IMG/VR virus record: IMGVR_UViG_3300025138_000231
Location: 1-29,393 of that record
Source of the DNA: a virus
Direction: 5' to 3' (one strand)
Length of the DNA stretch: 29,393 nt
Shown here piece after piece: positions 1-29,393 of this stretch. The notes under the pieces were generated by a model. That model made no database searches. It was not told the origin of the DNA and saw only the letters and a program-made list of their open reading frames with translations. Every line of letters begins with the position of its first letter. Within the stretch, counting starts at the first letter, position 1. The translations under genes and the position numbers were made by a program.

Positions 1-668
1 TTATTTAGGTCTATGCCTCGCTTTGCGTTGTTCTTTACACTATCAGGATAGTCGCTATATGAAGCAAGCTCTTCTTTGCTTAGAAGCTCTTTTAATTCCT
101 CTACTAACATTTGCTTTTGCAAGTCCTCGAAGCTATCGTCTTTTGACATGTCGTAACGGTCTGCGAAATACCCCTCTATACTGAACCCTTTGACCTCTCC
201 GCTTTTTGCTTTGGCATATAAATCGTCATCGTCAATTTTCATTGATACCATCCAGGTGCCCTCAGGTACATTTAAACCGTAGTGCCTTGATTTGTCTTGC
301 TCGCCCTCAACGATCCAAGACTCAACAATTGTTGTTCCCTTGATAGGTTGTTTATGCTCATAGGTTGCGTTCTGATGGTTTGAACGCTTAAAGAATAACT
401 CTGAGGCTTTCCTTACCGTATCCTTGCTAAAGTATATGTAATACTCATCTCCTGTCTTATCGTTTTTTCGGTAGATTTGTTTATTAGGAATTAAGGCAGC
501 GCCCATGAGCAACCGCTTTTCCTTATCTACTTCCGCAAGCATTACCTCTTGCTTATTCAAGGCAATAAAGTTTTCCTCTATTGCTGGTGTTTCGACAAGA
601 CTCACAGCCTCTATACCGCTGTTCTCGTCTTTCTCGTCAATGATTAATTCTACAATTCTCATATTCAT
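1..668 (-). CDS. XkdF-like prohead protease, 3' end outside window
   Basis: The first 222 codons of a putative capsid-maturation serine protease of the phage XkdF type, which cleaves scaffold or capsid protein during prohead assembly. The conserved core runs from about residue 53 (LLMGAALIPN) through YEHKQ (His105) and IVESWIVEG to GLNVPEGTWMVSMK and KGFSIEGYF (Ser163). His105 and Ser163 are my guess at the catalytic pair, not proven. The C-terminal SDYPDSVKNNAKRGIDLN is the beginning of a tail domain often fused to Bacteroidetes XkdF proteins, and the reading frame is still open at base 1. GGAGG lies at 673-677 on the minus strand, 4 nt before ATG 668 and 10 nt before ATG 662, so either start is possible. 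It follows the tape measure gene by 15 nt. Confidence 0.8.
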   Translation of the reverse strand, partial: MNMRIVELIIDEKDENSGIEAVSLVETPAIEENFIALNKQEVMLAEVDKEKRLLMGAALIPNKQIYRKNDKTGDEYYIYFSKDTVRKASELFFKRSNHQNATYEHKQPIKGTTIVESWIVEGEQDKSRHYGLNVPEGTWMVSMKIDDDDLYAKAKSGEVKGFSIEGYFADRYDMSKDDSFEDLQKQMLVEELKELLSKEELASYSDYPDSVKNNAKRGIDLN

Positions 669-683
669 ATAACCTCCGTTTTT

Positions 684-2768
684 TTAAAGTGTTGCATTTT
701 GTACTCTGTTTCTGTCTAATGCCTGAGCTGTGGTTACATCTCCGCTGACCACAAAGGCTTGCGTTGGCTGTTGCTGTAATTGTGCGAGCTGATTTACTCC
801 GCTGTCTCCGACTACGTTAAACTCAGGGGCGCCTCCTCCTCCAATTCCGCTTGGGCTTGGGTTGTCAACTGTTCCTCCTGGAGATTCAAATTTAGTAGCA
901 GCAATTGTTGCAATATTTGCAGCCGATGTTGCCGCAGCAAATGCAAGCGAAGCAATACCAGCTGGATTCGGTACAGGTCCAATAGCCACAGGCGACTGAG
1001 CTAAAGAAGCCGTTATTGCTTTTCCAGCATCAATGATTGCGCCTCCTAATTGCAAAGCCTTATTAAACTTAAATTGTTTTTTTGCAAGCGCTTCCTCTTC
1101 CTTGCTTCCTTTTTCCAACTTAGACATTTTATTTGCAAAAACAGCATCTCCTAATGCTTGCACGGCAGCTGCTCCTTTCTCAGCCATTTCCAAGCCTTCT
1201 TCAATTCCCTCAAATACTTTTTCTCTGTCTTCTTTTCTTTGCTTTTCTTCGTCTTCATAAAACTGCATTGTTATTTTTCCCATTGCAGCATACTTATTAA
1301 AAGTAGTTTCTACTTCTTTGTTTGCAGTTAATTCAGCAACATTTATGCTTTCTACACCAAATTCTTTTTCTGCCTCTAAGTCTTTTTGCCTAAATTCATT
1401 CCTTATGTCATTCTCAGCCTCTTGTTGTTGGAATAAAAATAATTCAATCAAGCGCTTACGTTCTAAAGCATTTATTTCCGTGTTTTTCTTTGTGTCTTCA
1501 ATTAGGCGATCAAATTTTACTTTGTTGAGCTTAAGTTCTTGATTAATGCCCTCTTCCATTATTTCAATTTCAAGGTCTTCAATTTGCCTTGCTACAGATA
1601 AACGTTTATCTTGAAACTTTTTCCAATTTTCATATTTTGTTTTTTCATGTTGAGCATCAAGGATTTCCATTTTATCGAATCCATCGGACTGTATCTTTCT
1701 TAAGCCTTTTATTTGCTCTACAAGTAATAACTGTTCTTTTTTATTTGCAGCAATCTTTGCATCTAATATTTTTTTTAATCTTTTTTCTTCTATTTTTTGC
1801 GCCTTTGTTGGATCTAAACCAAAAGCCATAGTTTCGCTATTAAACTGCTTAAATAATTCTTTATTTTCTTCTGTTATTTTACGATATGCCTCTTGCGTTG
1901 CCTTGCCTCTTTTTTGTATAGATTCCATAAACTCAAGCGCAACTTGCCTTTCTGCTTGCGCCGAAGACTTCCCTTGTGCTTGTAATACCTTTATGCGTTG
2001 TTCACGCGCTGCTGCTTCATTATCTTCAAGTTTGTTTAATTCATCAAGCTGCTTTCTTCTGGATGCCAATTCATCTTGATACCGCAACATTTCTGCATCG
2101 TGCCTTTTTTGCCTTGCCTCTTCTGCTTTCTTTTCTTGCTCTTCAAGTTTTTCTAAAGCTATCATCAAAGCTGCTACTGCCGTCAAAACAACTCCGATAC
2201 CTGTCAATGCAAAAGCCTTAGAGGCAGTTGTCATCCCTTTAAAAGCTTTTATTGCAACACCTCCAAATTGCTTAAATACTGGTATTGATTCGCGAATACC
2301 TTGAACCCCTTGCTGTATTGCTAATGCTGACTGCACCTTTAACAATGTTTCTTCAAGCGCTTCTGACTCTACTCCAACTAAACCCATTACTCCCTGGATA
2401 GCTGCAAAGCCACTGGTCGCTCCTGTTAATGCTCCTCCAAGCTTTTGATCTAAAGTCGTTGCTGCTGAATCAACTACTAAGTCGGTTTGTATTTGTACCT
2501 TTCTATATTGACCTACCTTTTCAAGTAACCCCTGATATTCTCGACTCGTTGTATCGCCAGCAAGCGCAAGTTCGTAAAGTCGATCCTCAGCCTCACCCAT
2601 TCTTGCTGTAAGCGGTTGAATATCTCCGTTAGCCTCCTCAAAAGTTTTATTTAAACCCTCTAAAGAATCATTTGCTACTTCGGTTGCTTTGCCTAAGTCT
2701 TTAAATTCTTCTGTCGCCTCGTCAACACCTTTAGTTTTTACATTGACATTTATTGACTTGTTTACCAT
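684..2768 (-). CDS. Tail tape measure protein
   Basis: A 694-aa protein with the build of a siphovirus tape measure. It would sit inside the tail tube and set tail length. It has a short N-terminal region, a glycine/alanine-rich stretch with one hydrophobic segment at about residues 185-205 (FALTGIGVVLTAVAALMIAL), a very long charged coiled coil at about 205-560 rich in Lys, Glu and Gln, a second alanine-rich hydrophobic part at about 565-630, and a Gly/Pro/Ser-rich C-terminus. By the usual 0.15 nm per helical residue the tail would be near 100 nm, which is an inference. Its start overlaps the preceding 62-aa gene by 7 nt. It is downstream of the large tail proteins, whereas in most siphoviruses it precedes them. 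Confidence 0.85.
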   Translation of the reverse strand: MVNKSINVNVKTKGVDEATEEFKDLGKATEVANDSLEGLNKTFEEANGDIQPLTARMGEAEDRLYELALAGDTTSREYQGLLEKVGQYRKVQIQTDLVVDSAATTLDQKLGGALTGATSGFAAIQGVMGLVGVESEALEETLLKVQSALAIQQGVQGIRESIPVFKQFGGVAIKAFKGMTTASKAFALTGIGVVLTAVAALMIALEKLEEQEKKAEEARQKRHDAEMLRYQDELASRRKQLDELNKLEDNEAAAREQRIKVLQAQGKSSAQAERQVALEFMESIQKRGKATQEAYRKITEENKELFKQFNSETMAFGLDPTKAQKIEEKRLKKILDAKIAANKKEQLLLVEQIKGLRKIQSDGFDKMEILDAQHEKTKYENWKKFQDKRLSVARQIEDLEIEIMEEGINQELKLNKVKFDRLIEDTKKNTEINALERKRLIELFLFQQQEAENDIRNEFRQKDLEAEKEFGVESINVAELTANKEVETTFNKYAAMGKITMQFYEDEEKQRKEDREKVFEGIEEGLEMAEKGAAAVQALGDAVFANKMSKLEKGSKEEEALAKKQFKFNKALQLGGAIIDAGKAITASLAQSPVAIGPVPNPAGIASLAFAAATSAANIATIAATKFESPGGTVDNPSPSGIGGGGAPEFNVVGDSGVNQLAQLQQQPTQAFVVSGDVTTAQALDRNRVQNATL

Positions 2769-8234: not shown

Positions 8235-8996
8235 TTACCGAAATAAGGTATATTCGTTTTCTTTTATTCTTTGTTCCGCAATCTTGAAATAATTCTCATC
8301 CATTTCAATTCCTATTCCATTTCTATTCGTATTCTGACACGCTACCATTGTAGAACCCGAACCCATAGTAAAATCTAATACTATTTCACCTTCGTTAGTG
8401 TAGGTCTTTATTAAATACTCCATTAAAGCAACGGGTTTTTGGGTTGGATGAATTGGCTTTTGACATTCTAAATCAAATTCAAGCACACTTTGTGGGTAAT
8501 TAGTAAAAGCTTGTGTAGTATCTCTATGACTAGGTCTAGCTCCAAAACTTGCGTCTTGTGTTGTTTTATTTTTTCTTTTAATATTAACTTCTTTTAATCC
8601 TTGAGGGTTGTATACCATTCTGCTTTTAGACTGATTCCTGTGTATTGTTTTTCCTTTGCTAAATACTATTAAATTCTCGTGTTTTTTTAAAGGTTTGTTT
8701 TTAGCGTGTGCGAAACCACTATTGAATCTCTTCTTTCTCCATACCCAGTCATATTTAAAATCTTGAATATTACTCATTCTTAAAGCGCTACTAAACGGTT
8801 CACTACCGAATAACACTATTGCTCCATTCGGTTTTATTATCCTATTAAGTTGATTCCACATTAAATCAAAATCAATAACGCTATCCCATTTACACGCAGT
8901 TGTACCGTATGGTGGATCTGTTATAATAGCATCAATAGAACCACTTTTAATCGTTTTCATTATCTCTAAACAATCGCCATTTCTTAAATCAATCAT
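8235..8996 (-). CDS. DNA N6-adenine/N4-cytosine methyltransferase
   Basis: A 253-aa S-adenosylmethionine-dependent DNA methyltransferase of the beta class. Motif IV is DPPY at residues 27-30 near the N-terminus, and the FxGxG-type SAM site is FTMGSGST at 209-216 near the C-terminus, with the recognition part between them. HPTQKPVALMEYLI is the typical segment before motif I. Length and motifs are complete, so it should be active. DPPY permits either adenine-N6 or cytosine-N4; adenine is more usual. It starts by ATGA overlap with the large terminase gene, so it is made late, beside packaging. It has no restriction partner here and probably protects the phage genome or marks it for packaging. 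Its target site cannot be read from sequence. Confidence 0.88.
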   Translation of the reverse strand: MIDLRNGDCLEIMKTIKSGSIDAIITDPPYGTTACKWDSVIDFDLMWNQLNRIIKPNGAIVLFGSEPFSSALRMSNIQDFKYDWVWRKKRFNSGFAHAKNKPLKKHENLIVFSKGKTIHRNQSKSRMVYNPQGLKEVNIKRKNKTTQDASFGARPSHRDTTQAFTNYPQSVLEFDLECQKPIHPTQKPVALMEYLIKTYTNEGEIVLDFTMGSGSTMVACQNTNRNGIGIEMDENYFKIAEQRIKENEYTLFR

Positions 8997-10153
8997 AGCA
9001 CGCTGTAACTTCCGTAATTCTTATTCATTCCTAATGTTTCCATCTCATGATACCTGACCGCATCCAGCGCATGGTTGAAATTATCCACAGGTTTATTAAG
9101 TTGCTTGCCTGTTTTATCCTTATCCCAACAATAGCTCCGCAGCTCTTTGATTAGGTTTGTGCTTTGAGAGGTTACTAAATAGTTTTGCCTTTGCATTACA
9201 TCTATTCCGTAATTGATTGAATCTCTGCCTTTGGTTACCCCTTTTATAATGATTCCGTAACGCTGTATATCAGCGATTGATTTGGGTTCGGCAGAATCGG
9301 CATATATTGGAACGTCTTTAGGCAACTTCTTTGCTATGTCAGAATTTAGCAATCCTGTTTGGTAGGTCATCTCATCCAAAATGCGTTGGTCATTGTATTT
9401 ATAGACTGCGATTATAGCTGTCGGATCCGCAGAGTACCCAAAGTCTAAACCTATGCCTATCAATCTTGCCTCCTCAGGTATTCTATCAATCGTTTTGTAG
9501 TTCGTAAATACCGCGCCTTGTAATTGACCGACCTTGCCCTCTCCGTAAACAGTCCACCAGTTGCGCCAATATGCGCTTGTCTTCGCTTTTAAGCGGTTCT
9601 TTTCTATTTGTTGGATAATACCCTCATCAAGCCCCTCATTGTCCTTGTAGGTTAATATTATGAAATCGGCATCGTCTTCCCCTTTGAGTTCTCTATGAAC
9701 CCAAAACTCATTGGCTGGATTGAAGTCGAGGTAAACGCTTCGCTTTGTTCTTATGGAAAGTTCGTTGTAAGCTTCAAAGGTTACATTGTTGCACTCGTTG
9801 ATGTATAAAATATCCCTCCTCGCTCCTCTGAGTTTGCTTGCATCGTCTGCGCTAAAAAATTCGATAAAGCTTCCGTTTGCAAATTCGTATTTTAGATAGC
9901 TCTTGTTGAAACGATCCTCCTGAAAACGATTTGTCCATTTCATAATTTTCAAGAAATCTCGAAGGGCACCGCGCCTAAGGTGGGGAATGCTCTCGGCAAC
10001 TACGCTTATTTCTAAGCCGCTTTTTTTTGTTGCCTTGTCTATGAGTACAGGAAGTATGCCAAAAGTCTTTCCAGCGGATGTACCTCCCTGAATTATTTTA
10101 ATTCGCTTTTTGAGAGCGAGTATTTTATTTATCGCTGTTGTCCTCTGTAACAT
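8993..10153 (-). CDS. terL: Terminase large subunit
   Basis: A 386-aa packaging motor and nuclease. The ATPase half has Walker A GGTSAGKT at residues 23-30 and a Walker B-like DILYINE at 114-120, with the catalytic Glu120. The RNase H-like nuclease half has the expected acidic residues in LDFGYSADPTA (Asp237), YADSAEP (Asp286) and NHALDAVRY (Asp364). The sequence is of the PBSX-like type and full length. It overlaps the end of the small subunit gene by 29 nt, and the methyltransferase gene begins within its stop codon (ATGA). It translocates DNA into the prohead through the portal. The portal gene is about 15 kb away in this window rather than next door. Confidence 0.95.
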   Translation of the reverse strand: MLQRTTAINKILALKKRIKIIQGGTSAGKTFGILPVLIDKATKKSGLEISVVAESIPHLRRGALRDFLKIMKWTNRFQEDRFNKSYLKYEFANGSFIEFFSADDASKLRGARRDILYINECNNVTFEAYNELSIRTKRSVYLDFNPANEFWVHRELKGEDDADFIILTYKDNEGLDEGIIQQIEKNRLKAKTSAYWRNWWTVYGEGKVGQLQGAVFTNYKTIDRIPEEARLIGIGLDFGYSADPTAIIAVYKYNDQRILDEMTYQTGLLNSDIAKKLPKDVPIYADSAEPKSIADIQRYGIIIKGVTKGRDSINYGIDVMQRQNYLVTSQSTNLIKELRSYCWDKDKTGKQLNKPVDNFNHALDAVRYHEMETLGMNKNYGSYSVL

Positions 10154-10457
10154 CAGGGAATAAAGGTTGCTCTATATTAGTTTGTTCGATTTGTTGCAAT
10201 GGCGCGCCGTATGCGCTGTCCATTAATTTTTGATACGATTGAGCATCGCCATCTCTTGCTTTCTTGATTAGAGCTAAAGTCATCAAATCCTCTTGGCTCA
10301 TGTTTTCAATCTTGCTTGTTAGAGGGTTTTTAAGATTCTGCTCAACGGATAGCCATTTGTTTGCTATTGTGCTTCGGTTCTTGCTTCCAACAGGTCTGCC
10401 CTTTGGGTTTCCGCTTTGCCCTTTCTTGTATGGGATTAAATTATCTTCGTTAGCCAT
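10125..10457 (-). CDS. Small terminase-like protein (DUF5681 type)
   Basis: A 110-aa protein with the N-terminal GQSGNPKGRPVGSKNRST motif of the DUF5681 family, often found immediately before the large terminase. A helical region follows (MSQEDLMTLALIKKARDGD, then YQKLMDSAYGAP), then an acidic tail. It is the best candidate for the DNA-recognition subunit of packaging. The motif is seen directly; the role is inferred from the family's usual position. It overlaps the large subunit gene and starts in the stop of the dioxygenase gene. Confidence 0.75.
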   Translation of the reverse strand: MANEDNLIPYKKGQSGNPKGRPVGSKNRSTIANKWLSVEQNLKNPLTSKIENMSQEDLMTLALIKKARDGDAQSYQKLMDSAYGAPLQQIEQTNIEQPLFPDVTEDNSDK

Positions 10458-11266
10458 TAGTGGTCTTTTCTTTTAATTGCTCGCTCCATTGCCTTTTGTT
10501 GCAAGCGTTCTACTTCTTCTTTATATGGGTAGCAATGTTTCATTTGTTCAAGGCTGTAATAGACTATGCTTGCCCTGTATGGATTGTCATCAGTTTTTAT
10601 GATTGGCATTACTCCGTGTATTTCCGTTTGACCATCAAATATTGCAAGGAATCCATCGTCTTGACTTAAGGCAAAACCGTACTCAGGAAATACAAGCTCC
10701 CCTCCAGCTATGCCATGCCTTAAAATTAAAACATTGCTTAGATTGCCTTTAAAGTTGCCTGTATCGCGATGGTATTTAATCGCATGGTTTACATTTATAT
10801 TTGCAGTCAAAAAAGGAGACTCTCTTTGGATCCTGTAATCTGCTTCAACGCTCTCATCAATTAGCTTTGTATCTCTTTCTAAATTATCAGGCAAATGTTG
10901 CTTATAAATCTTTAAAAGCTTTTTGCTGAATTTAAAAATTCTTAGGTTGTTTTCTCTCTCTTGTTTCGTCTTTGCGCTAAATCTGCAAAAATCATTGCGC
11001 CTTGCTATTCTCGGCAAGCTTCCGAATACGCTGCTTTGAGTTGGCAAGCCTCTTGTCCTACTGCTTCTATTTAGTTTTGTTGTCAAGGATGCCTTTCTAA
11101 TTCCTGTAAGCTCCTTAGAATTGATTTTAATATATAACCCTACCGCTTTGCCATCCTTATAAAATATACAATCCTCGCTAATTACTTCAGAGTAATCGTC
11201 TTTGCTTGGAGTATTTTTGAGCAGCTCATCGCATTTTTTTATTTGTATTAAATTAACCTTTCTCAA
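10457..11266 (-). CDS. TET/JBP-like 2OG-Fe(II) dioxygenase
   Basis: A 269-aa protein with the iron-binding triad of a 2-oxoglutarate dioxygenase: His166 and Asp168 in KYHRDTGN, and His217 in TEIHGVMP. Arg231 in YRASIVYYS is the likely 2OG-binding arginine. GIAGGELVFPEYGFAL and the upstream SSVFGSLPRIARRNDFCR match my memory of phage TET/JBP-family proteins, which oxidise the methyl group of 5-methylcytosine in DNA. The same phage carries a C5-cytosine methyltransferase at 16205-17311, the expected partner. It lies between a ParB-like gene (14-nt overlap) and the small terminase, where DNA would be modified before packaging. No glycosyltransferase was seen. It could instead be a related hydroxylase with another substrate. 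Confidence 0.7.
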   Translation of the reverse strand: MRKVNLIQIKKCDELLKNTPSKDDYSEVISEDCIFYKDGKAVGLYIKINSKELTGIRKASLTTKLNRSSRTRGLPTQSSVFGSLPRIARRNDFCRFSAKTKQERENNLRIFKFSKKLLKIYKQHLPDNLERDTKLIDESVEADYRIQRESPFLTANINVNHAIKYHRDTGNFKGNLSNVLILRHGIAGGELVFPEYGFALSQDDGFLAIFDGQTEIHGVMPIIKTDDNPYRASIVYYSLEQMKHCYPYKEEVERLQQKAMERAIKRKDH

Positions 11267-11834
11267 CTTCCATAATTTTTAAAATTACTTGACTAAAATC
11301 CTCTACCCCTAAATCATTTACTTTTTTTTCAAACCAAGCTACAACCTTTTCGTATAAATCAGAATCGTAAACTAAATACAAACGTTTAATTTCAGCATTT
11401 AAAAAGTTTTCAAGCTCCTCGTCAGGATTCATTCCAGCGTATTCATTTTCGTTTGACATATTGTCTCCCATAAATGGCATAGACAAACCCATCCCCTCTA
11501 ATTCATCCATGTCAAAATCATTTGCCAAAGCATCCCAGTCCCATTCTCCTGAGCTGAGATTATCCTTTACTATGAACTCTCTTTGTTGTTCCTCTGTTAA
11601 TGAGCTTGCTTTGATTATGTAAACTTCTTTTAATCCAGCCTCTTTGCATGCTCTTAATCTTTGGTTGCCTCCAAGTACAATGTTATCGTCATTTACTATA
11701 ATAGAACGCAACTGCAACATCCAGGGAGATTCTTTGATTGACTTAACTAATTTTTTAAATTGAAAGTCTTTAATAACTCTTGGGTTATTTGGGTTATTCT
11801 TTACCTGAGATATTTTTACCTTTTCAATTTGCAT
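11253..11834 (-). CDS. ParB-like nuclease-domain protein
   Basis: A 193-aa protein whose first 95 residues match the ParB/sulfiredoxin-like domain common in phages. Visible parts are KISQVKNNPNNPR near the N-terminus, KLVKSIKESPWMLQLRSIIV, the nucleotide-site motif VLGGNQRLRACKEAG, and EEQQREFIVKDNLSSGEWDWD. The C-terminal half is acidic and of unknown function. In other phages these proteins occur beside terminases or DNA methyltransferases, and some bind or nick DNA or use CTP/ATP. Here it is immediately before the dioxygenase and terminase genes, so a role in DNA modification or packaging is plausible. It starts with a TAATG overlap after the 128-aa gene. Confidence 0.8.
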   Translation of the reverse strand: MQIEKVKISQVKNNPNNPRVIKDFQFKKLVKSIKESPWMLQLRSIIVNDDNIVLGGNQRLRACKEAGLKEVYIIKASSLTEEQQREFIVKDNLSSGEWDWDALANDFDMDELEGMGLSMPFMGDNMSNENEYAGMNPDEELENFLNAEIKRLYLVYDSDLYEKVVAWFEKKVNDLGVEDFSQVILKIMEVEKG

Positions 11835-12220
11835 TATTCGTAAGTTTCAAAAACCGTCTTCATCTTGTTATGGATTTCCCTTAGACAGCTTGCGCAGTTT
11901 GTTGCGTTTGTTTTTACTCTAAAGATTCGGCTGTATATTTTAATCATTTTATCTCTTTCGCTTGGTCTGTAAGTTGTTGCTTCTTTTGCAAACCATTCCT
12001 TTAGCCATTTGTATTCGTCTTCCAGTAGGCAGTCAGGCTTCTTTGTAGTTCTGAATAACTCGTTGAGCTTATTTTTTCTCTCGGTACAGCCGCAATCCTC
12101 TCCAAGAATAAACTTAGCTACCTTTGCAGCTCCTGTCTTTTCCAATACCTCCTCTACTATGTCGCCAACTCCTTTGGTTGGTTGTTTTATTGGTTTCCGT
12201 TTTTTTGTTGTTTTACTCAT
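11834..12220 (-). CDS. Conserved phage protein with cysteine pairs
   Basis: A 128-aa protein of a kind I recall from Bacteroidetes phages, with no known function. It has a Lys/Pro-rich N-terminus, then VGDIVEEVLEKTGAAKVAKF, a cysteine group (EDCGCTERKNKLNELF), EDEYKWLKEWF, and a C-terminal CASCLREI. The CGC and CASC pairs could bind zinc or iron. It ends with a TAATG overlap with the ParB-like gene and follows the 79-aa gene by 10 nt. Its place in front of ParB, dioxygenase and terminase makes a late DNA-handling role possible, but this is only position. Confidence 0.7.
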   Translation of the reverse strand: MSKTTKKRKPIKQPTKGVGDIVEEVLEKTGAAKVAKFILGEDCGCTERKNKLNELFRTTKKPDCLLEDEYKWLKEWFAKEATTYRPSERDKMIKIYSRIFRVKTNATNCASCLREIHNKMKTVFETYE

Positions 12221-12230
12221 GATTTTTTTT

Positions 12231-12470
12231 TTAAATATACAATAGCGATTGCATTACATCTATTTCCTTTTGCGTTTCCGTGTCCGCTTTAAGGTTGCCT
12301 ATAAGCTTGCTTTTTAATCTTAGTATCTCTTGCTTTACATACTTGGTTCGATATATTGGTCTGGTATCCTCTTCCTTTTGTACGGTGTAACCGTGTTCCT
12401 CCAGGAGCTTAATGCTTTCCTCAATCTTTGCTTTTTGTACTCGGTAGTGGTTAAATATTTGATTGTCCAT
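12231..12470 (-). CDS. Small helical hypothetical protein
   Basis: A 79-aa charged protein, not recognised. Two predicted helices (RVQKAKIEESIKLLEEHGY and YVKQEILRLKSKLIGNL) flank a short loop with TVQKEEDTRPIYRTK, a layout like a small coiled-coil or helical-hairpin regulator. Its start lies inside the preceding 62-aa gene (20-nt overlap). It is part of the sigma-factor transcript. Confidence 0.6.
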   Translation of the reverse strand: MDNQIFNHYRVQKAKIEESIKLLEEHGYTVQKEEDTRPIYRTKYVKQEILRLKSKLIGNLKADTETQKEIDVMQSLLYI

Positions 12471-12639
12471 CTGTTGTTGATTTATTATAAATTTCTTTTT
12501 CCGATTCGCTTAGGTTCGTATAATGGTAGAAAGGGCTTGAAAGCATTTCGCTCTCCGTATAATATGCCTCATCTTTTTTCCCTATTACTTTTGCTGTAAA
12601 GTATAGCCACTTTCTGCCTTTATCCATTTTAACTTTCAT
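12451..12639 (-). CDS. Small hypothetical protein after sigma factor
   Basis: A 62-aa protein, not recognised. It has a basic N-terminus (KVKMDKGRKWLYF), a few aromatic residues and an acidic, Ser/Thr-rich C-terminus. It begins 2 nt after the sigma-factor stop codon and overlaps the next gene by 20 nt, so it is translated together with them. A partner or anti-sigma role would be guesswork. Confidence 0.55.
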   Translation of the reverse strand: MKVKMDKGRKWLYFTAKVIGKKDEAYYTESEMLSSPFYHYTNLSESEKEIYNKSTTDGQSNI

Positions 12640-12641
12640 AA

Positions 12642-13184
12642 CTATTTTTTGTTCTTTTGGTTTACAAAATCTTGGTATTGTTCATTTAGCTTTTCTCTTA
12701 TCTTAGCCTTGCATCTTTTTAAAGTATAAAATATCGTCTTTGTGCTGATGTTAGAACCCTCGGCAATCGCTCTCATGCTTATAGCATCCTCTCGGTATTT
12801 ATCCTGGATCCCTGTATAAGCTCTAAAGACTCCATTGTCAAAAAATTGCCAAGTATTCATCTCCTTTATAATTTCTGATTCTAAATTATCGCTTTCATTT
12901 GGCTGATAGTAATCGTATTCTACAGCAATAGGATGTTCTTCAATATCTATTTTATGCACCTTTTGTTTTTCTTGCTGATAATTTAAGAATAAATTTTTTA
13001 GAATCGTGTAAAGGTATCCCATGTTTAGTTCGCCATCCTTGATTGCTATCTCTTCCTTTCCGTATTTGATTAGCTTGATGTAGAACTCTTGAACAATGTC
13101 CTCAGCGTAAAAATGCTCGCCTAAGTCGTGAATGATCCTGATAAAATCATTTTGCTTTTCTTGAACTTTTACAATCCACTCCAT
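12642..13184 (-). CDS. Phage RNA polymerase sigma factor, sigma-70 family (ECF-like)
   Basis: A 180-aa sigma-70-like protein with only regions 2 and 4. Region 2 is visible as HFYAEDIVQEFYIKLIKYG at about residues 24-42, the usual -10-binding helix, followed by LYTILKNLFLNYQQEK. Region 4 is a helix-turn-helix at about 133-166 (SMRAIAEGSNISTKTIFYTL, then KRCKAKIREKL). It would direct host RNA polymerase to phage promoters, most likely the late ones. It is the first gene after a strong terminator and has its own TAnnTTTG promoter box, so it is a separately controlled switch. Its own target promoter sequence is not known. Confidence 0.85.
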   Translation of the reverse strand: MEWIVKVQEKQNDFIRIIHDLGEHFYAEDIVQEFYIKLIKYGKEEIAIKDGELNMGYLYTILKNLFLNYQQEKQKVHKIDIEEHPIAVEYDYYQPNESDNLESEIIKEMNTWQFFDNGVFRAYTGIQDKYREDAISMRAIAEGSNISTKTIFYTLKRCKAKIREKLNEQYQDFVNQKNKK

Positions 13185-13199
13185 TGGTTACAATCTAAT

Positions 13200-13207
13200 C
13201 AAATGTA
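13200..13207 (-). promoter_or_regulatory. Bacteroidetes-type -7 promoter box for sigma factor gene
   Basis: The minus strand reads TACATTTG, an exact match to TAnnTTTG, 15 nt before the sigma-factor ATG. No TTTG is seen at the -33 spacing; that stretch is the T/A-rich tail of the terminator. Transcription would begin close to the gene, at about 13193. Confidence 0.6.
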
Positions 13208-13225
13208 GTGATTATTTTTTAATCA

Positions 13226-13253
13226 TTAAAAAGCCCAACATTTCTGCTGGGCT
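13226..13253 (-). terminator. Rho-independent terminator after the recombination operon
   Basis: On the minus strand, AGCCCAGCA, a GAAA tetraloop and TGTTGGGCT form a 9-bp stem with one G-U pair, followed by T5. It closes the replication/recombination operon after the SSB-like gene and separates it from the sigma-factor promoter. Confidence 0.9.
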
Positions 13254-13277
13254 AATTACTACACAATTACCCTCGTA

Positions 13278-13601
13278 TTAGAAAGGGATGTCTTCAGAAT
13301 CTTTGCTTTCGTATGAAGCCTCCTCTGTTTGCGCTCGGTTCAATCTCCAAGCTTCCAAAGTATTAAAATATTTTACTTCGCCTTTTGGGGAGGTCCATTC
13401 TCTGCCTCTTATGTTTATATCAACATCAACCGCATCTCCTACCTCGTAGTCATCCAGGAGAGGGCATTTATCTTGCGTTAGCTGCAATGAAACCAATTGC
13501 GGATACTTATCCTCCGTTTCAAGTACAAAGTCTCTCTTTGCAAATTTTTGACTGATTTGTTGGGTTTCCCCTTTTAGGTGTAATTTTCCTTTTACGTTCA
13601 T
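13278..13601 (-). CDS. SSB-like OB-fold protein (DUF3127 type)
   Basis: A 107-aa protein that looks like a small single-stranded-DNA-binding OB-fold protein of the DUF3127 type: an initial beta strand (MNVKGKLHLKGETQQIS), KRDFVLETEDKYPQLVSLQL, then VGDAVDVDINIRGREWTSP and YFNTLEAWRL. The acidic C-terminal end SKDSEDIPF copies the DDIPF tip by which bacterial SSB recruits repair and replication proteins. It is the last gene of the recombination operon, 2 nt after its neighbour, and just before the terminator. It would protect ssDNA made by the exonuclease and work with the ERF annealing protein. Confidence 0.75.
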   Translation of the reverse strand: MNVKGKLHLKGETQQISQKFAKRDFVLETEDKYPQLVSLQLTQDKCPLLDDYEVGDAVDVDINIRGREWTSPKGEVKYFNTLEAWRLNRAQTEEASYESKDSEDIPF

Positions 13602-13603
13602 GA

Positions 13604-13978
13604 TTATTTATTTATGTATTTTAATTTTAAAGGTGTCCAATAAGCTTTTTTGCCATTCATAACTTTTTTGTCTTTAAGGTATCTCGGTCTAAAAATATCA
13701 TATTCAGTCCATACCGCTAAACCATCAAACATTAACTCATATTCAGTTAGCGGATTTAGTTCAACTAACCTTTCTTTAAACATAATATCATCAAGCGCAT
13801 GAACAGCCTCAGAATTAACCCCTCCAATTATTGCTGTTCGTCCTTTATGAGTTTTAGAACCTTTTAAATAATCCAAATTGCCTTTCAATTCTGGAATTAA
13901 TTTTAATAAATCCAAAATATAAACCTCCTCATTGTAACTACTTTTAATTGCGTTCATTATTTTATCTTTTAAACTCAT
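13604..13978 (-). CDS. Hypothetical protein in recombination operon
   Basis: A 124-aa protein, not recognised. The N-terminal 35 residues are helical (LKDKIMNAIKSSYNEEVYILDLLKLIP could pack as a small helical bundle). The rest is alpha/beta with a basic, aromatic end (AYWTPLKLKYINK). It overlaps the exonuclease gene by ATGA, so it is coupled to it. A DNA-binding or accessory role beside the exonuclease and SSB-like proteins is a guess from position. Confidence 0.6.
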   Translation of the reverse strand: MSLKDKIMNAIKSSYNEEVYILDLLKLIPELKGNLDYLKGSKTHKGRTAIIGGVNSEAVHALDDIMFKERLVELNPLTEYELMFDGLAVWTEYDIFRPRYLKDKKVMNGKKAYWTPLKLKYINK

Positions 13979-14670
13979 ACCTCTTGCGCTTTAAATTGTT
14001 CGTGAATTAATGTCTCGTAATACTCTCGGCATTCCTCAACTCGCTCGTAAATCTTTTTAATTGCTTCAGGATCGTATGCAATCTCAAAGCATTTAATTCT
14101 TTGCTCCTTTGGCACTCTCTCGAAGTTATGTTGCATTTCTACTGCATTCCTTACAATTGGGTTGTCTTCTATTTCTTTGAGCTTGTAGTGGACTCTTCTA
14201 ACCTCATCCTCGACAATGTCGCTTGGTGTATCTACTAAGCAATAAACGAGATATGAGTTTCGTCTTCCTGTCAATTCCATGTAACCCTGGAGCTGATAAT
14301 AGTAATCCTTGTTCGGTACATCCTTTTTAAACCAGGGGAATGTAGTCGCATCATAACTACTCTTTACATCAAGCACAAAATCCTCATTGAGTACGTCAGG
14401 AGTTCCTGTCAAGTATTCATTCTCGTAAAACTCCTCATTCTTTGACATTGCGCCCATCTTCAGAACCTCCTCGGCAAGCTCTATGCTTGCATCCTCAACC
14501 GCTATTCCCTTATCAATGGCTTTGCTCCATATGTCTTTGCTATACCCGTACATATTCTCAATAGCATAGTCCTCTAAATAACCTTGACAAGTCTTGCTCA
14601 ATTGCCCTTTTGTTCGGCTGTTCGTCATTATCTTGCCAATTGCGGAGCATCTTATCTTAAATTCTTTCAT
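13975..14670 (-). CDS. YqaJ/lambda-exo-type recombination exonuclease
   Basis: A 231-aa nuclease of the YqaJ (lambda exonuclease-like) family with the PD-(D/E)xK fold. It begins FKIRCSAIGKIMTN, the usual first helix. GIAVEDASIELAEEVL carries the conserved acidic helix, TGTPDVL gives Asp92, VLDVKSS gives Asp101 and Lys103, and YYYQLQGYMELTG is the conserved Gln/Tyr helix. It should degrade one strand of double-stranded ends to give ssDNA for annealing. The ERF gene is immediately upstream with an ATGA overlap, forming the classic exonuclease plus annealase pair. Confidence 0.85.
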   Translation of the reverse strand: MKEFKIRCSAIGKIMTNSRTKGQLSKTCQGYLEDYAIENMYGYSKDIWSKAIDKGIAVEDASIELAEEVLKMGAMSKNEEFYENEYLTGTPDVLNEDFVLDVKSSYDATTFPWFKKDVPNKDYYYQLQGYMELTGRRNSYLVYCLVDTPSDIVEDEVRRVHYKLKEIEDNPIVRNAVEMQHNFERVPKEQRIKCFEIAYDPEAIKKIYERVEECREYYETLIHEQFKAQEV

Positions 14671-15188
14671 AGTTGCTCTAATTGCTTATCGGTTAATGAG
14701 TAATTCTCTTTGAGTTTCTCGGTAGTATATTCTCCTCGGTCAATCATTTCTAAGGCAGCTTTAAAATTAGCAGCGTTAAGCTTCTTTTTCTCTTTCTTCT
14801 TTCCGTGAGTATTCGTTGAATCAGCATCTTTTGTATCGTCTATTAAGAATAATCCATTTAATGCGTACTTCCTTGCATAGCTGGAGGAGGATCCAAAGCT
14901 CTGAGCAATGTCCATTCCTTTGCGATTGATGTCAATGCCAGCTTGCGCCTTTACAGCTTGAACTTTACTGCCATCCGTAATCATTGCAGTCGCTTCGACA
15001 TACATACAGCCAGCAGCTTCCTTTACCTCATCCGTAAGGTTCAATACTAAGCCATTGAGCAAAGGCTTTACCGCCTCCATAATGTCCTCGCAGCTTCGGT
15101 ATTTATACTTTCCAAAGCTATTATACTGATTCTTTGGCGCTTTCAGTTGTTGTTGGATTTCTCCAAGTCTTTCAATTAGTTTATTCAT
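14667..15188 (-). CDS. erf: ERF family ssDNA-annealing recombinase
   Basis: A 173-aa protein of the ERF annealing family. It has the N-terminal helical start with NSFGKYKYRSCEDIMEAVKP, a central beta region, and the family's signature near residues 98-112 (FGSSSSYARKYALNG), followed by a linker KKKEKKK and a helical C-terminal domain with EKLKENYSLTDKQLEQL. It anneals complementary ssDNA, working with the exonuclease encoded next (ATGA overlap). It is upstream of the SSB-like protein and downstream of NinG in one recombination cassette. Confidence 0.88.
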   Translation of the reverse strand: MNKLIERLGEIQQQLKAPKNQYNSFGKYKYRSCEDIMEAVKPLLNGLVLNLTDEVKEAAGCMYVEATAMITDGSKVQAVKAQAGIDINRKGMDIAQSFGSSSSYARKYALNGLFLIDDTKDADSTNTHGKKKEKKKLNAANFKAALEMIDRGEYTTEKLKENYSLTDKQLEQL

Positions 15189-15193
15189 AACGA

Positions 15194-15475
15194 TTAATTT
15201 ATTTGGTTTATATAATTATGCGCTTGTTCATAGTGCGCAACATAGCGTTTAAAATTTTTATAGCTTTCTCTAAGTTCTTTTGATCCTCTGTAATCGCCTT
15301 GTAAAGCGCAACTGTTTGCCTCTGAGTATATCGCCTCTTTGTAGGTTATTGCTTTGATTAGGCTTAAATCAAACAGCCATCCATCCCCGATTCGCTCGTT
15401 GATTATTTCTCTACCTTGAATTTTGATTGATAAGATTCCAGCGGTCGCCGAAACCTCAATGGGTTTTCCTTTCAT
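15194..15475 (-). CDS. Hypothetical protein before ERF
   Basis: A 93-aa protein, not recognised. It has a beta N-terminus (GKPIEVSATAGILSIKIQG), a middle helix around LSLIKAITYKEAIYSEAN, and a C-terminal helix rich in Tyr and Lys. It is 5 nt before the ERF gene and 57 nt after NinG. That 57-nt gap is AT-rich and holds no recognisable promoter box or hairpin. A recombination accessory role is inferred only from position. Confidence 0.6.
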   Translation of the reverse strand: MKGKPIEVSATAGILSIKIQGREIINERIGDGWLFDLSLIKAITYKEAIYSEANSCALQGDYRGSKELRESYKNFKRYVAHYEQAHNYINQIN

Positions 15476-15532
15476 AATACGTTTTTAATTGTTAGTGATA
15501 TAAAAATAATAAAAATATTCCTTATATAAAAA

Positions 15533-16057
15533 TTATTCTTTTAAGGCTTTCGCCTTTTGTTTGTACTCCTCAATAATATCTCGCAGCTCATCCCTTGAAT
15601 ATTTCATAGTCTTATGCGCTTGCTCATGCAATTGGATTAATTCATCTGCTCCGATTCTCTCCTGGATTCCTATTTGATAGTTTAGCAAGTTTCCGTGTTT
15701 ATGTTGGTTACAAGCCACGCACTGACCGTGTACGTTTCTCTCGTCAAATGTAACAGATTTATGCGTTCCGCTGCTGAAATAATGTCCAGCATCAAACTTA
15801 TGACCTAAAGGCTGACCGCAAGAAACGCAAGGTTTTTTTTTGTCTCGCTCTCGGATAAATGTATTAAAATATTTTTGCGCTTTCTTCATTAAGCTTTGAA
15901 CGGTTTCCAGGGTTTCCTTTAGTTCTTTTTTTTCTTTCTTCCAATTCTTGACCTTTGCAGTTTCTATCCATACTTTAACGCATTCAGGCTTAAAGCAATA
16001 TTTTTGATTAAAGTGCTTGGCTTCAAATTTTTCTTTGCAGTTTTTACAACGTGGCAT
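15533..16057 (-). CDS. ninG: NinG/Rap-type recombination protein
   Basis: A 174-aa protein of the NinG (Rap) family, a structure-specific nuclease that helps resolve recombination intermediates in lambdoid phages. It has an N-terminal zinc knuckle (PRCKNCKEKFEAKHFNQKYC with a further Cys at ECV), a coiled lysine-rich linker, a second CVSCGQPLGH zinc site, then FDAGHYFSSGTHKSVTFDE and VHGQCVACNQHKHGN, an HNH-like active site, and a helical C-terminus. Motifs and length are normal for the family. It starts inside the end of the small Zn-ribbon gene (14-nt overlap). Confidence 0.9.
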   Translation of the reverse strand: MPRCKNCKEKFEAKHFNQKYCFKPECVKVWIETAKVKNWKKEKKELKETLETVQSLMKKAQKYFNTFIRERDKKKPCVSCGQPLGHKFDAGHYFSSGTHKSVTFDERNVHGQCVACNQHKHGNLLNYQIGIQERIGADELIQLHEQAHKTMKYSRDELRDIIEEYKQKAKALKE

Positions 16058-16208
16058 CGTCTTTTTGAAATATGTAAACTTCTTCTACGTTGCAATCTAT
16101 GTTAGTGCATAGGTGTACGTTTATTATGCCGTCATCTTCTAAGTTGAAGTCTTCGTATTCGTGTTGCTCTTGCCATTTTATTGGCTCTCCGCATTGTGGG
16201 CATTTCAT
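16044..16208 (-). CDS. 54-aa Zn-ribbon protein
   Basis: A small gene, short but well supported. The start makes an ATGA overlap with the C5-methyltransferase stop, and the end overlaps the NinG start by 14 nt, so it exactly fills the gap. The protein begins MKCPQCGEPIKW and later has LCTNIDCN, giving a CxxC plus CxxxxC zinc-ribbon pattern, with an acidic middle. Zinc ribbons of this type commonly bind nucleic acid or a protein partner. Coupling to NinG and the methyltransferase suggests a DNA-metabolism role, but the partner is unknown. Confidence 0.8.
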   Translation of the reverse strand: MKCPQCGEPIKWQEQHEYEDFNLEDDGIINVHLCTNIDCNVEEVYIFQKDDATL

Positions 16209-17311
16209 AAGTTAAATTGTTTTATGATTAATTCTAAGCACCGTACTACTATACTATTTCCAGCTTGTTTATATGCTTGGCTATCTGAGCAAGTCCAAGT
16301 AAAGGTATCGGGAAAGTCCATTAGTCGAAAGCATTCTCTTGGAGTTAATCTTCTCATATTGCCAGTATTTTTTTTTACTTTTTTTAACATTGACAAATAC
16401 TCTGATGAAGAACCGCCTCTGCCAATAGCTTCAGTAAGAGTTCCGCTTACATGAGGGTCTACCTTTAACTTATCTAATTTATTTTGTTGATTATCATTTA
16501 ATTTTTTAGTTGCAGATTTAATTTCTATTGTATTATCAGTAGGGCACAAAGCTGCATTTGCGCGTAAAGTGTTTGCGGTATCATTTTCGTTTTTTGGTTG
16601 CCATTTAAATCCTGTTTGTTTTTCTTCGTGTCTTTCTTTGTGTTTTAAAAAACCGTTTATAATTGTTTCACTTAAAAAATACTTTTCATCTGCTTCATTT
16701 TCAAGTACGTTTTTTAGTCGTTTGGTTAAGTGTTCTTCTTTTGCCCATCGAAAATTATTGTCTTGATCATAGCGAATGCCTATTATAAAAACTCTTTGCC
16801 TATTCTGTGGTACTCCGTGTTTTTTTGCATTCATTACTTTATAGTAAATATGATAAGGCACTGAATCTTCATAAGGAAACAATACAGGTAAACCGTTTAC
16901 GCTTTTGCCTCCTAACATATTTACCCATTCTTTAAAAGTGTTTCCGTTGTCGTCTGACAATAGACCTTTGACATTTTCAAATATAAAATATCTTGGCTTG
17001 TTCTTCTTTATAAATTCGTGGCTATTAAAAAACAATAAGCCTCTTTTATCGTCTTTGCCTAATCGTTTTCCAGCTAAACTAAAAGCCTGGCAAGGTGGCG
17101 AAGTCATATAAATGTCTAAGCTTTCTTTTGGTATTTCTCTTTCGTAAACATCCTTAGGATAGTATTTAGGCTCTCCGTAATTATGTATAAATGTTTCTCT
17201 TGCAAATTTATCCATATCACAAGCGAAAACCTCATCGTATTTAATACCTAAACGCATTAATGCTTGATTAAATGCGCCTACTCCAGAAAAATCACTTCCC
17301 ACCTTTATCAT
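16205..17311 (-). CDS. C5-cytosine DNA methyltransferase
   Basis: A 368-aa enzyme with the full set of C5-methyltransferase motifs: I DFSGVGAF (residues 7-14), IV SPPCQAFS with the catalytic Cys74, VI FENVKGL (111-117), VIII QNRQRVFIIG (169-178), IX RRLTPRECFRLMDFPD, and X QAGNSIV near the C-terminus. The target-recognition part lies between VIII and IX, about residues 180-320. It should methylate cytosine C5 in a specific sequence that cannot be read here. No restriction enzyme gene is adjacent. It overlaps neighbours by ATGA on both sides, inside the replication/recombination operon, so it is an early gene. The TET/JBP-like dioxygenase may use its product. Confidence 0.95.
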   Translation of the reverse strand: MIKVGSDFSGVGAFNQALMRLGIKYDEVFACDMDKFARETFIHNYGEPKYYPKDVYEREIPKESLDIYMTSPPCQAFSLAGKRLGKDDKRGLLFFNSHEFIKKNKPRYFIFENVKGLLSDDNGNTFKEWVNMLGGKSVNGLPVLFPYEDSVPYHIYYKVMNAKKHGVPQNRQRVFIIGIRYDQDNNFRWAKEEHLTKRLKNVLENEADEKYFLSETIINGFLKHKERHEEKQTGFKWQPKNENDTANTLRANAALCPTDNTIEIKSATKKLNDNQQNKLDKLKVDPHVSGTLTEAIGRGGSSSEYLSMLKKVKKNTGNMRRLTPRECFRLMDFPDTFTWTCSDSQAYKQAGNSIVVRCLELIIKQFNL

Positions 17312-28598: not shown

Positions 28599-29258
28599 TT
28601 AATTATTATTATTATTTGAATTTGCTATTTTAGATAGTACGGTATCCATGATAGTCTTGCGCTTGTTTGGGGAAATCGTGTTTCCAGCTTTTTTCGCTTT
28701 GTTCTCAGGATTGTGTACTATTGGTTTTGCTGCTGCAATAACTTCTTCAGCCTTTGGCTCTTCCGTTGACAGCTCAACCTCTTCTGTAATTGCTTCAGGA
28801 GTAGACTCTTCGGCTACTGGATCCTTTGACAATTCTTGGAGCTTAGATTGAAGCTCCTCATTTTCTTTTTTCAATTTTTCCATTTCAGAAAAGAAAGTTT
28901 CTTTTACGATTGATTCAACCGTTTTTTTGATAGGCTTAGATTCTTCCGTAGCTGCTTCAACTTCTTCTTCAACAACTTCTTCTTTTACTTCTTCCTCAAC
29001 AACTTCTTCCTCTGCCTCTTTAAGCTCGCCAATGATTCCCTCTTCAGTAATTACAAGAATCTCTCCTGATTCCATTTTGTACTCGCCAATAGGTAAAGCA
29101 ATTTTTTGCTCGTCTTCCGTTACAATCATAACTTCCTCGCCTTGCTCAAAAGTTTCTGCTTCTATGACCGTTACTTTGTCATCTAATTTGCGTTGCTCAA
29201 GCTTTACCTCTAAGCCTAAAACTTCTCTTACTTTGTTTAAAATAGAATTATCTTTCAT
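28599..29258 (-). CDS. Head scaffolding protein
   Basis: A 219-aa very acidic protein directly before the capsid gene. The N-terminal part (DKVTVIEAETFEQGEEVMIV and ALPIGEYKMESGEILVITEE) is a beta domain I recall from Bacteroidetes scaffolds. The middle is Glu/Val-rich low complexity (about residues 83-110), then a coiled coil (SEMEKLKKENEELQSKLQEL), then a basic C-terminus that would bind the capsid, ending in Asn repeats. This acidic, helical, basic-ended layout is typical of scaffolds that are removed by the prohead protease. It is 21 nt after the end of the partial gene. Confidence 0.75.
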   Translation of the reverse strand: MKDNSILNKVREVLGLEVKLEQRKLDDKVTVIEAETFEQGEEVMIVTEDEQKIALPIGEYKMESGEILVITEEGIIGELKEAEEEVVEEEVKEEVVEEEVEAATEESKPIKKTVESIVKETFFSEMEKLKKENEELQSKLQELSKDPVAEESTPEAITEEVELSTEEPKAEEVIAAAKPIVHNPENKAKKAGNTISPNKRKTIMDTVLSKIANSNNNNN

Positions 29259-29279
29259 TTTGTTTATTTATTCGTGTTT

Positions 29280-29393
29280 TTAAATAGTCACTTTAGATAT
29301 TTTTACAACATCGTCTGAAGCTGCATTAAATTTACTTGGATATTCAGATATTAATTTTTCTAATTGCGTATATCCAGGTATTTCTTTAGCGGA
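29280..29393 (-). CDS. C-terminal end of an unknown gene cut by the window
   Basis: The last 37 codons of a gene that enters from beyond the right edge; the reading is open at 29393 and ends at TAA 29280-29282. The peptide contains EIPGYTQLEKLISEYPSKFN and ends VKISKVTI. The family is not recognised. It lies just before the scaffold gene, so it is likely a late structural or assembly gene. It does not continue the XkdF-like frame at the left edge. Confidence 0.6.
   Translation of the reverse strand, partial: SAKEIPGYTQLEKLISEYPSKFNAASDDVVKISKVTI

Follow-up and report, generated by a model that had tools for sequence, protein, structure and literature searches.

Does a phage that carries both a C5-cytosine DNA methyltransferase (C5-MT) and a TET/JBP dioxygenase use the first to supply the second? 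The question is raised by the IMG/VR virus record IMGVR_UViG_3300025138_000231, analyzed here from position 1 to 29,393 (29,393 nucleotides, the whole of which is referred to as the window), where an initial annotation had proposed that the C5-MT feeds the dioxygenase (hereafter TET) and that the phage DNA may contain 5-hydroxymethylcytosine (5hmC). Our analysis leads to a different reading, to which we assign a probability of about 0.6: TET, guided by the ParB-like protein encoded directly upstream, would oxidize a pyrimidine of the phage's own DNA, most likely thymine to 5-hydroxymethyluracil (5hmU), independently of the C5-MT and as protection against nucleases.

The dioxygenase, its ParB-like neighbor and the separate methyltransferase

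TET matches the Pfam family Tet_JBP (PF12851) with an E-value of 1.1e-16 and 61 bits, where the cut-off is 34.9, and its TTG-encoded M1 is nearly invariant among relatives. When the window protein was aligned with those of 62 of 80 related loci (near-copies, partial proteins, L042, which contains a stop, L076 and L078 were omitted), the iron ligands H166, D168 and H217 and the 2-oxoglutarate (2OG) arginine R231 were invariant in all 63 aligned sequences. The profile of these 63 window-type sequences matches TET2 with an E-value of 0.001, with the iron ligands and R231 in register; the stacking Y237 corresponds to TET2 Y1902 and N171 to TET2 N1387, and L239 stands where TET2 has H1904. The AlphaFold2 model (pLDDT 87.7, pTM 0.84) has NgTET1 as its top fold match (Z 18.1 over 220 residues, rmsd 3.1), with TET2 (Z 17.5 over 249 residues, rmsd 3.6) and CcTet/CMD1 (Z 16.5) also among the matches. 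The 16 best fold matches are all TET-family proteins, mostly solved with DNA, and identity to the solved TETs is 14-19% over the structural alignments; non-TET rows begin at Z 14.1, with FTO and ALKBH3 at about 13-14. A prolyl or peptide hydroxylase was ruled out, as the TET folds come first and the PHD2 row appears only at Z 12.5. The HMM search and the structure prediction thus both agree with the initial annotation, which had recognized the HxD...H and 2OG arginine pattern as TET/JBP-like, and from the sequence and the model it is likely that this TET oxidizes a DNA base.

Public names are of little help for this family. PADLOC gave no match for TET, the PHROG name that it receives, 'queuine tRNA-ribosyltransferase' (phrog_6059), looks like a propagated misnomer, and phage TET/JBP genes are in many cases publicly named 'queuine tRNA-ribosyltransferase' or 'SNF2 DNA repair protein', apparently by propagated misnaming.

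To place TET in its genomic context, we used the best 80 of 91 matching loci in IMG/VR, to which the window was added (81 loci). A ParB-like gene is found in 76 of the 81 and lies directly upstream of TET in 74, and a terminase gene is found in 72. The five loci that lack ParB are contigs starting inside TET; where the upstream side is present, ParB is present as well (76 of 76). In the window itself, ParB lies directly upstream of TET and the terminase genes directly downstream. The ParB-like protein consists of a common N-domain (residues ~1-110) that resembles ParB/Spo0J in sequence, a weakly predicted linker (~120-136) and a helical C-tail (137-192), with its model (ma5f2a689173d) reaching a pLDDT of 81.9 and a pTM of 0.54. 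The pairing extends to other phages: tblastn with the window TET matched 95 of 50,697 phage records, 84 of which are actinophages by name, and among 16 annotated phage records with a related TET, an annotated ParB-like gene lies within a few genes upstream in 11 and a terminase within several kb in most. All 16 of these whole records give a Tet_JBP match, which exceeds the cut-off in three. No relative was found in bacterial hosts or prophages in scans of genome contigs.

The C5-MT follows a different distribution. It is a canonical enzyme, matching PF00145 (E 2.8e-68) and, above the cut-off, TIGR00675 dcm, with motifs I, IV, VI, VIII, IX and X and a SAM-type Asn in motif X (GNS), so that the initial description of an enzyme with all main motifs was correct. 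Among the best 25 PADLOC matches, the methyltransferases mostly match type II or orphan methyltransferase models, and the C5-MT also DrmMII and DruM. A C5-MT was found in 6 of 35 TET records; of 43 TET-less relatives, which had been selected by terminase, 9 gave one (Fisher p 0.78). The composition of these sets should be considered when reading the counts: the TET records comprise all 33 contigs of at least 10 kb among the 80 loci plus two short ones, L007 and L043, picked as their C5-MT had already been seen, and without these two the count is 4 of 33; the TET-less comparison searched 45 of 79 new terminase loci; and some of the C5-MTs counted are partial matches (in the TET set, that of G029 and two part-genes of G017; in the TET-less set, those of G053, G071 and G079). 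The detectors differ by set as well, being PF00145, our own profile (terminase-selected and HTVC112P-type sets) or this profile with a Melnitz-3 query (Melnitz type). If only records of at least 15 kb are counted, the C5-MT is present in 4 of 25 with TET and 7 of 14 without (p 0.03), a value that ignores kinship and on which we base no claim.

Among 80 loci selected by terminase (the best 80 of at least 600 matches), TET occurs in five, the C5-MT in six and both in none. PF00145 matched none of the 16 whole annotated records mentioned above, nor any of three further TET records (Melnitz-3 apart). Within a single lineage (L007 against L005 and L006; 89-92% DNA identity, TET identical at 261 of 269 positions, 97%), L007 carries an orthologue of the window C5-MT between the 17308 gene and the NinG region, whereas L005 and L006 have nothing at that site. 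The nearest relatives of the window C5-MT among those compared are in L119 (80%), L162 (77%), L111 (75%) and L143 (74%), all of them records without TET in which the C5-MT lies 4-7 kb before the gene of the large terminase subunit (TerL), as in the window; the C5-MTs of TET records are less similar (L007 68%, L056 65%, others far lower). We thus judge the C5-MT to be an accessory gene, cleanly present or absent in relatives, and not a part of the TET module. Close to the C5-MT site, L006 and L005 carry another accessory gene (L006:4454-4912, ~153 aa, GNAT-like by eye) that is absent from L007, and this region seems to trade genes too in the L006/L007 lineage.

An exchangeable cassette beside the terminase

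TET occupies a slot between the gene of a 128-aa protein and a small DUF5681 gene (Table 1), the latter being taken as that of the small terminase subunit (TerS) by its position. Phages that share the window terminase have this slot either without ParB or with ParB and an enzyme. The slot was in view in 65 of 80 loci, the window counted (15 had no visible slot), with no ParB in 36 and ParB in 29. The 29 ParB slots, in overlapping categories, hold TAGT-like glycosyltransferases (12, alone or with another gene, one also with TET), ParB-methyltransferase fusions (7), TET (5), an ABC-ATPase/GNAT protein (3), Mom (2) or ParB alone (1). By Pfam, N6_N4_Mtase exceeds its cut-off in all seven fusions and Mom is confirmed in L110 and L141, and four of five tested TAGT-like proteins pass the Pfam cut-off (L142 fails), the remainder being assigned by clustering.

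The borders of the exchanged part were located by blastn of the slot region against seven loci that carry four other kinds of enzyme and whose flanks are 79-90% identical to the window: the homologous DNA ends at 11497-11512, within the ParB gene, and starts again at 10442-10469, where TET ends. For two ParB-less phages, the corresponding points are 11837 and 10431. The ParB N-domain of the window (110 aa) is 90-95% identical in L106, L108-L111, L115 and L128, whose slots hold a methyltransferase, TAGT, Mom or GNAT, and 58-85% in others. The C-tail aligns well to TET-linked ParBs only, and 74 of 75 TET-linked tails outscore the best of 25 others (ParB proteins shorter than 160 aa were omitted from the comparison set), while in their N-domains the TET-linked ParBs resemble the window ParB less (median 59%, as against 75% in the others). 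Exceptions are L142 and L144, kept out of both sets, where a different enzyme gene precedes TET in the slot and the ParB tails score low and are not of TET type. The ParB C-tail and the enzyme are thus an exchangeable cassette, in which the tail tracks the enzyme. This finding is new here; no description of such a ParB-linked or exchangeable modification slot was found in the open-license literature, as judged at the level of search listings.

Several slots deserve mention in their own right. In L118, L128 and L149, ParB lies beside an ABC-type ATPase and GNAT fusion protein (phrog_11143 in L118), possibly a further undescribed DNA-modification enzyme. TET-associated glycosyltransferase-like (TAGT) genes adjoin ParB in L106, L109, L111, L116, L117, L119, L120, L123, L124, L138, L152 and L153, mostly partial records in which Tet_JBP found no match; in L111 and L119 a C5-MT is also present.

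The layout described initially, with the C5-MT among recombination and replication genes and TET beside the terminase, is as we find it. At the left end of the window (1-690), a prohead-protease-like open reading frame (ORF; by eye) runs off the record, and the right end (28599-29393) is a capsid gene region; compared with L114, about 1 kb is absent, between prohead protease and capsid. This comparison makes it probable that the record covers almost all of a permuted genome of ~30 kb. The initial annotation also saw no sugar transferase, and indeed the TAGT family (PF20691) has no match in the record and Pfam scans of all 42 ORFs revealed none; its suggestion that such a gene might lie outside the window is unlikely given the near-completeness of the record. 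Pfam matches to RTP in the window and to N-glycanase_N in the 26585 gene are under their cut-offs. The gene directly before that of the large terminase is called 'adenylate kinase' in KayaCho and Stinger and 'terminase small subunit' in Nigel, apparently another misnaming. The second methyltransferase of the window belongs to the N6-adenine/N4-cytosine family, the products of which do not include 5-methylcytosine (5mC).

Table 1 Features of the window considered in the analysis, in positions of the 29,393-nucleotide stretch.
Feature	Position	Strand	Size and remarks	Basis
TET/JBP 2OG-Fe(II) dioxygenase (TET)	10457..11266	-	269 aa, TTG start	Pfam PF12851, alignment, predicted fold
ParB-like partner	11253..11834	-	193 aa; 14-base overlap with TET gene	ParB_N PF02195
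Exchangeable cassette (ParB C-tail and TET)	10442..11512	-		blastn against seven sister loci with other enzymes
Small DUF5681 gene	10125..10457	-	directly before large terminase gene; downstream slot border	
Large terminase subunit (TerL)	8993..10153	-		Terminase_3/3C
128-aa protein	11834..12220	-	upstream slot border	65 of 80 loci compared (window counted)
C5-cytosine DNA methyltransferase (C5-MT)	16205..17311	-	368 aa	PF00145, motifs
Second DNA methyltransferase, N6-adenine/N4-cytosine type	8235..8996	-	beside TerL	PF01555, E 2.8e-35

Proposed mechanism, substrate and rival explanations

In the mechanism that we favor, the ParB N-domain would engage phage DNA and its tail would hold TET, such that ParB delivers TET to the phage's own DNA before packaging; TET would then hydroxylate a pyrimidine at its 5-methyl group, the most likely reaction being that of thymine to 5hmU, and the modified base may block some host nucleases. 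The C5-MT would be a separately gained protection gene that TET does not need. The analysis shows the family, predicted fold and active-site residues of TET, its linkage to ParB, its independence from the C5-MT, the exchange of the cassette and the association of tail with enzyme; we infer that ParB is the subunit that targets TET, that thymine is the substrate and 5hmU the final product, and that the purpose is protection. The position of the slot next to the terminase agrees with an enzyme that acts after replication and before packaging, and the ParB-methyltransferase fusions suggest that ParB and the enzyme work as one unit. As the N-domain is so highly conserved between certain sister phages in which tail and enzyme have changed jointly, the tail is predicted to bind the enzyme; common descent of linked genes could by itself produce the same association, and the dock is therefore put forward as a hypothesis.

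Thymine already bears a 5-methyl group, and for an oxygenase found in phages that make no 5mC, the substrate should be a base common to all of them, which thymine fits. The base-contacting residues are consistent with this choice. N171 is present in all 63 window-type sequences and in 10 of 10 relatives (nine actinophages and one cyanophage), while the C5-MT-linked clade has Asp (59 of 59); L239 is present in 59 of 63 window-type sequences and is otherwise Met, while the C5-MT-linked clade has Asp or Gly. The position of N171 is assigned to an N4 contact in TET2, NgTET1 and CMD1, and that of L239 to an O2 contact in TET2, NgTET1 and CcTet (PMC11040006). These residues are not proof of thymine, because TET2 has Asn too and because the TETs of the HTVC112P type have Asp with no C5-MT found; the residues thus do not sort by partner.

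Some observations weigh against our reading and should be considered. N171, being as in TET2, a 5mC enzyme, is compatible with cytosine; the HTVC112P-type TETs carry the NgTET1/CMD1-type Asp at this position, yet a C5-MT is found in 0 of their 36 loci. The slot of L017 contains a C5-MT gene immediately behind TET, and those of L043 and L056 lie 0.9 and 1.7 kb upstream of TET; the viral records are, moreover, linear and possibly fragments. Phage TETs have been described as typically linked to cytosine modification (PMC11404850, PMC12730594), and host-made 5mC could be the substrate. The aGPT-Pplase/pyrophosphorylase and 5hmU kinase of actinophage modules are absent from the window (Pfam scans of the 42 ORFs), and the window is therefore not classed as a hypermodification system.

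How do these points bear on the alternatives? That the C5-MT makes 5mC, which TET oxidizes to 5hmC that is left unglycosylated, draws on two intact genes in one record, the canonical methyltransferase motifs, the TET2-like Asn, the existence of C5-MT/TET systems in other phages (Melnitz type) and the three loci just named. We nonetheless consider it unlikely, in view of the independent assortment of the two genes, the near-identical TET kept without the C5-MT in L005 and L006, the C5-MT relatives at a similar distance from TerL in records without TET, the whole phage records devoid of C5-MT, the distance of ~5 kb between the two genes in the window and a clade other than that of the real operons. 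Of the initial proposal of 5hmC DNA, the enzyme families, the likely base oxidation and the lack of a sugar transferase thus stand, while the C5-MT as supplier of TET does not; 5hmC in this phage is a minority possibility, given that both genes are carried. Similarly doubtful is a TET that takes both thymine and 5mC, or oxidizes host-made 5mC, in which case the product would depend on the host and on the accessory genes present. In its favor, N171 is compatible with either base, L239 lacks the side chain that contacts O2 in TET2, NgTET1 and CcTet (PMC11040006), and a minority of TET phages carry a C5-MT; against it, ParB is the sole partner in the conserved gene order, which points to a module that suffices in itself.

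Two further alternatives have much lower probability. The versatility of 2OG oxygenases would allow action on RNA or protein, which we regard as improbable since the top fold matches are TET-family enzymes mostly solved with DNA and since the slot of TET is otherwise filled mainly by DNA-modification families. Least probable of all is an N6-methyladenine (6mA) demethylase acting on the product of the second methyltransferase, which is of a suitable N6/N4 type. CcTet, a TET relative, does act on 6mA, but it is its Gly331 that admits this base, and the window TET has at this position the Asn that is said to block 6mA in other TETs (PMC11040006), which makes a CcTet-like activity unlikely; relatives of the second methyltransferase were found, furthermore, in 7 of 80 related loci, with one close match (L002).

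Returning to ParB-guided thymine oxidation, we also put forward, as a tentative generalization at somewhat below even odds, that in this group of phages the slot serves as a plug-in site for DNA-modification chemistry: the ParB N-domain would load onto DNA, the C-tail would be an enzyme-specific dock that is exchanged along with its enzyme, and thymine oxidation would be the chemistry chosen here. If this is true, ParB is a general adaptor for whichever enzyme its tail binds (TET, Mom, glycosyltransferase or ABC-GNAT, with methyltransferases being fused), and sister phages switch base modification by one recombination event. Tails that bind their enzymes would be ready-made tags for aiming DNA-modifying enzymes. 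The likely modified base shifts from cytosine to thymine, such that 5hmU, and not only 5hmC, should be assayed. ParBc-domain proteins beside phage DNA-modification enzymes have been noted for CmoX, with their role stated as unknown (PMC12783734), and this role becomes testable.

Comparison with known systems

With the solved 5mC enzymes TET2, NgTET1, CcTet and CMD1, the window TET shares the fold, the HxD...H...R residues and the stacking aromatic, and it differs from TET2, NgTET1 and CcTet in having Leu in place of their O2-contacting His or Arg. The kinetoplastid thymidine hydroxylases JBP1 and JBP2 belong, by name, to the same Pfam family, and JBP acts on thymine in DNA (PMC10276184); a J-binding domain as in JBP1/JBP2 is not among the Pfam matches of the window TET (Pfam scan only). 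The ParB-associated modification genes of CmoX (PMC12783734) resemble our locus in having a ParBc protein beside a phage DNA-modification enzyme. In CmoX, an Arg replaces the motif X Asn (PMC12783734), and a CmoX-type carboxymethyltransferase was ruled out for the window C5-MT, which keeps this Asn and has no Arg (R350) there.

Genuine C5-MT/TET operons, the cytosine-hypermodification operons of phages reportedly described by Burke et al. in 2021, likewise have both enzymes in one phage. In Methylophilales phage Melnitz-3, the gene of an HhaI-like methylase overlaps that of TET, and among it and 71 related loci (72 Melnitz-type loci) a C5-MT is found in 67 and ParB in none, ParB being sought here and in the HTVC112P-type set with the window ParB as the only query. 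When 8 partial loci are omitted, 63 are listed, of which 56 have more than 1.2 kb upstream; these all have a C5-MT (56 of 56), immediately upstream of TET in 52. In these operons the C5-MT is thus adjacent and no ParB is found, whereas in the window the C5-MT is ~5 kb away and ParB is adjacent. They also differ in the residues that stand in place of N171 (Asp, 59 of 59) and of L239 (Asp or Gly), and in their clade: in a maximum-likelihood tree, 13 Melnitz-type TETs form one clade (100/100), and a 100/99 split parts them from the window-type and actinophage ParB-TETs. It should be noted for this tree that long branches were flagged and that 24 window-type rows were labeled as ParB-context as a group. 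Adjacency, membership in the C5-MT-linked clade and a glycosyltransferase or other second-step enzyme, all expected of such operons, are lacking in the window, of which ~1 kb may be missing. All 63 Melnitz-type C5-MT ORFs longer than 350 aa (L224:3206-4423 and relatives in L225-L295) have Leu for the motif X Asn (GLMVAP against GNS), at the position where CmoX has Arg, and this position deserves assay.

The HTVC112P-type TETs lie on the C5-MT side of the 100/99 split, and ParB is found in 29 of their 36 loci. Because this type mostly has ParB, with no C5-MT found, the pairing of TET with ParB reaches beyond the clade of the window. A PDB search with an HTVC112P TET gave unrelated matches only.

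The closest likeness is to the ParB-TET/JBP modules of actinophages (Mycobacterium phages Nigel and Stinger, Gordonia phage CaiB and Rhodococcus phage Tonitrus), which have ParB directly or nearly upstream and the terminase downstream, in genomes with no C5-MT match. Their TETs have ~25-31% identity to the window TET where most of the protein aligns. Some of these modules contain added enzymes near TET that the window does not have: aGPT-Pplase2 and an adenylate kinase/5hmU kinase in Tonitrus, the genes of which are a possible thymidine hypermodification system (PMC11955845), a kinase in CaiB, for which a pyrophosphorylase is also reported (PMC9302106), and a glycosyltransferase and deacetylase in Lilmac1015 and Altadena. 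The window TET is a further member of this known ParB-TET/JBP kind, one without second-step enzymes, and shares its clade with the actinophage TETs (Stinger being absent from the tree).

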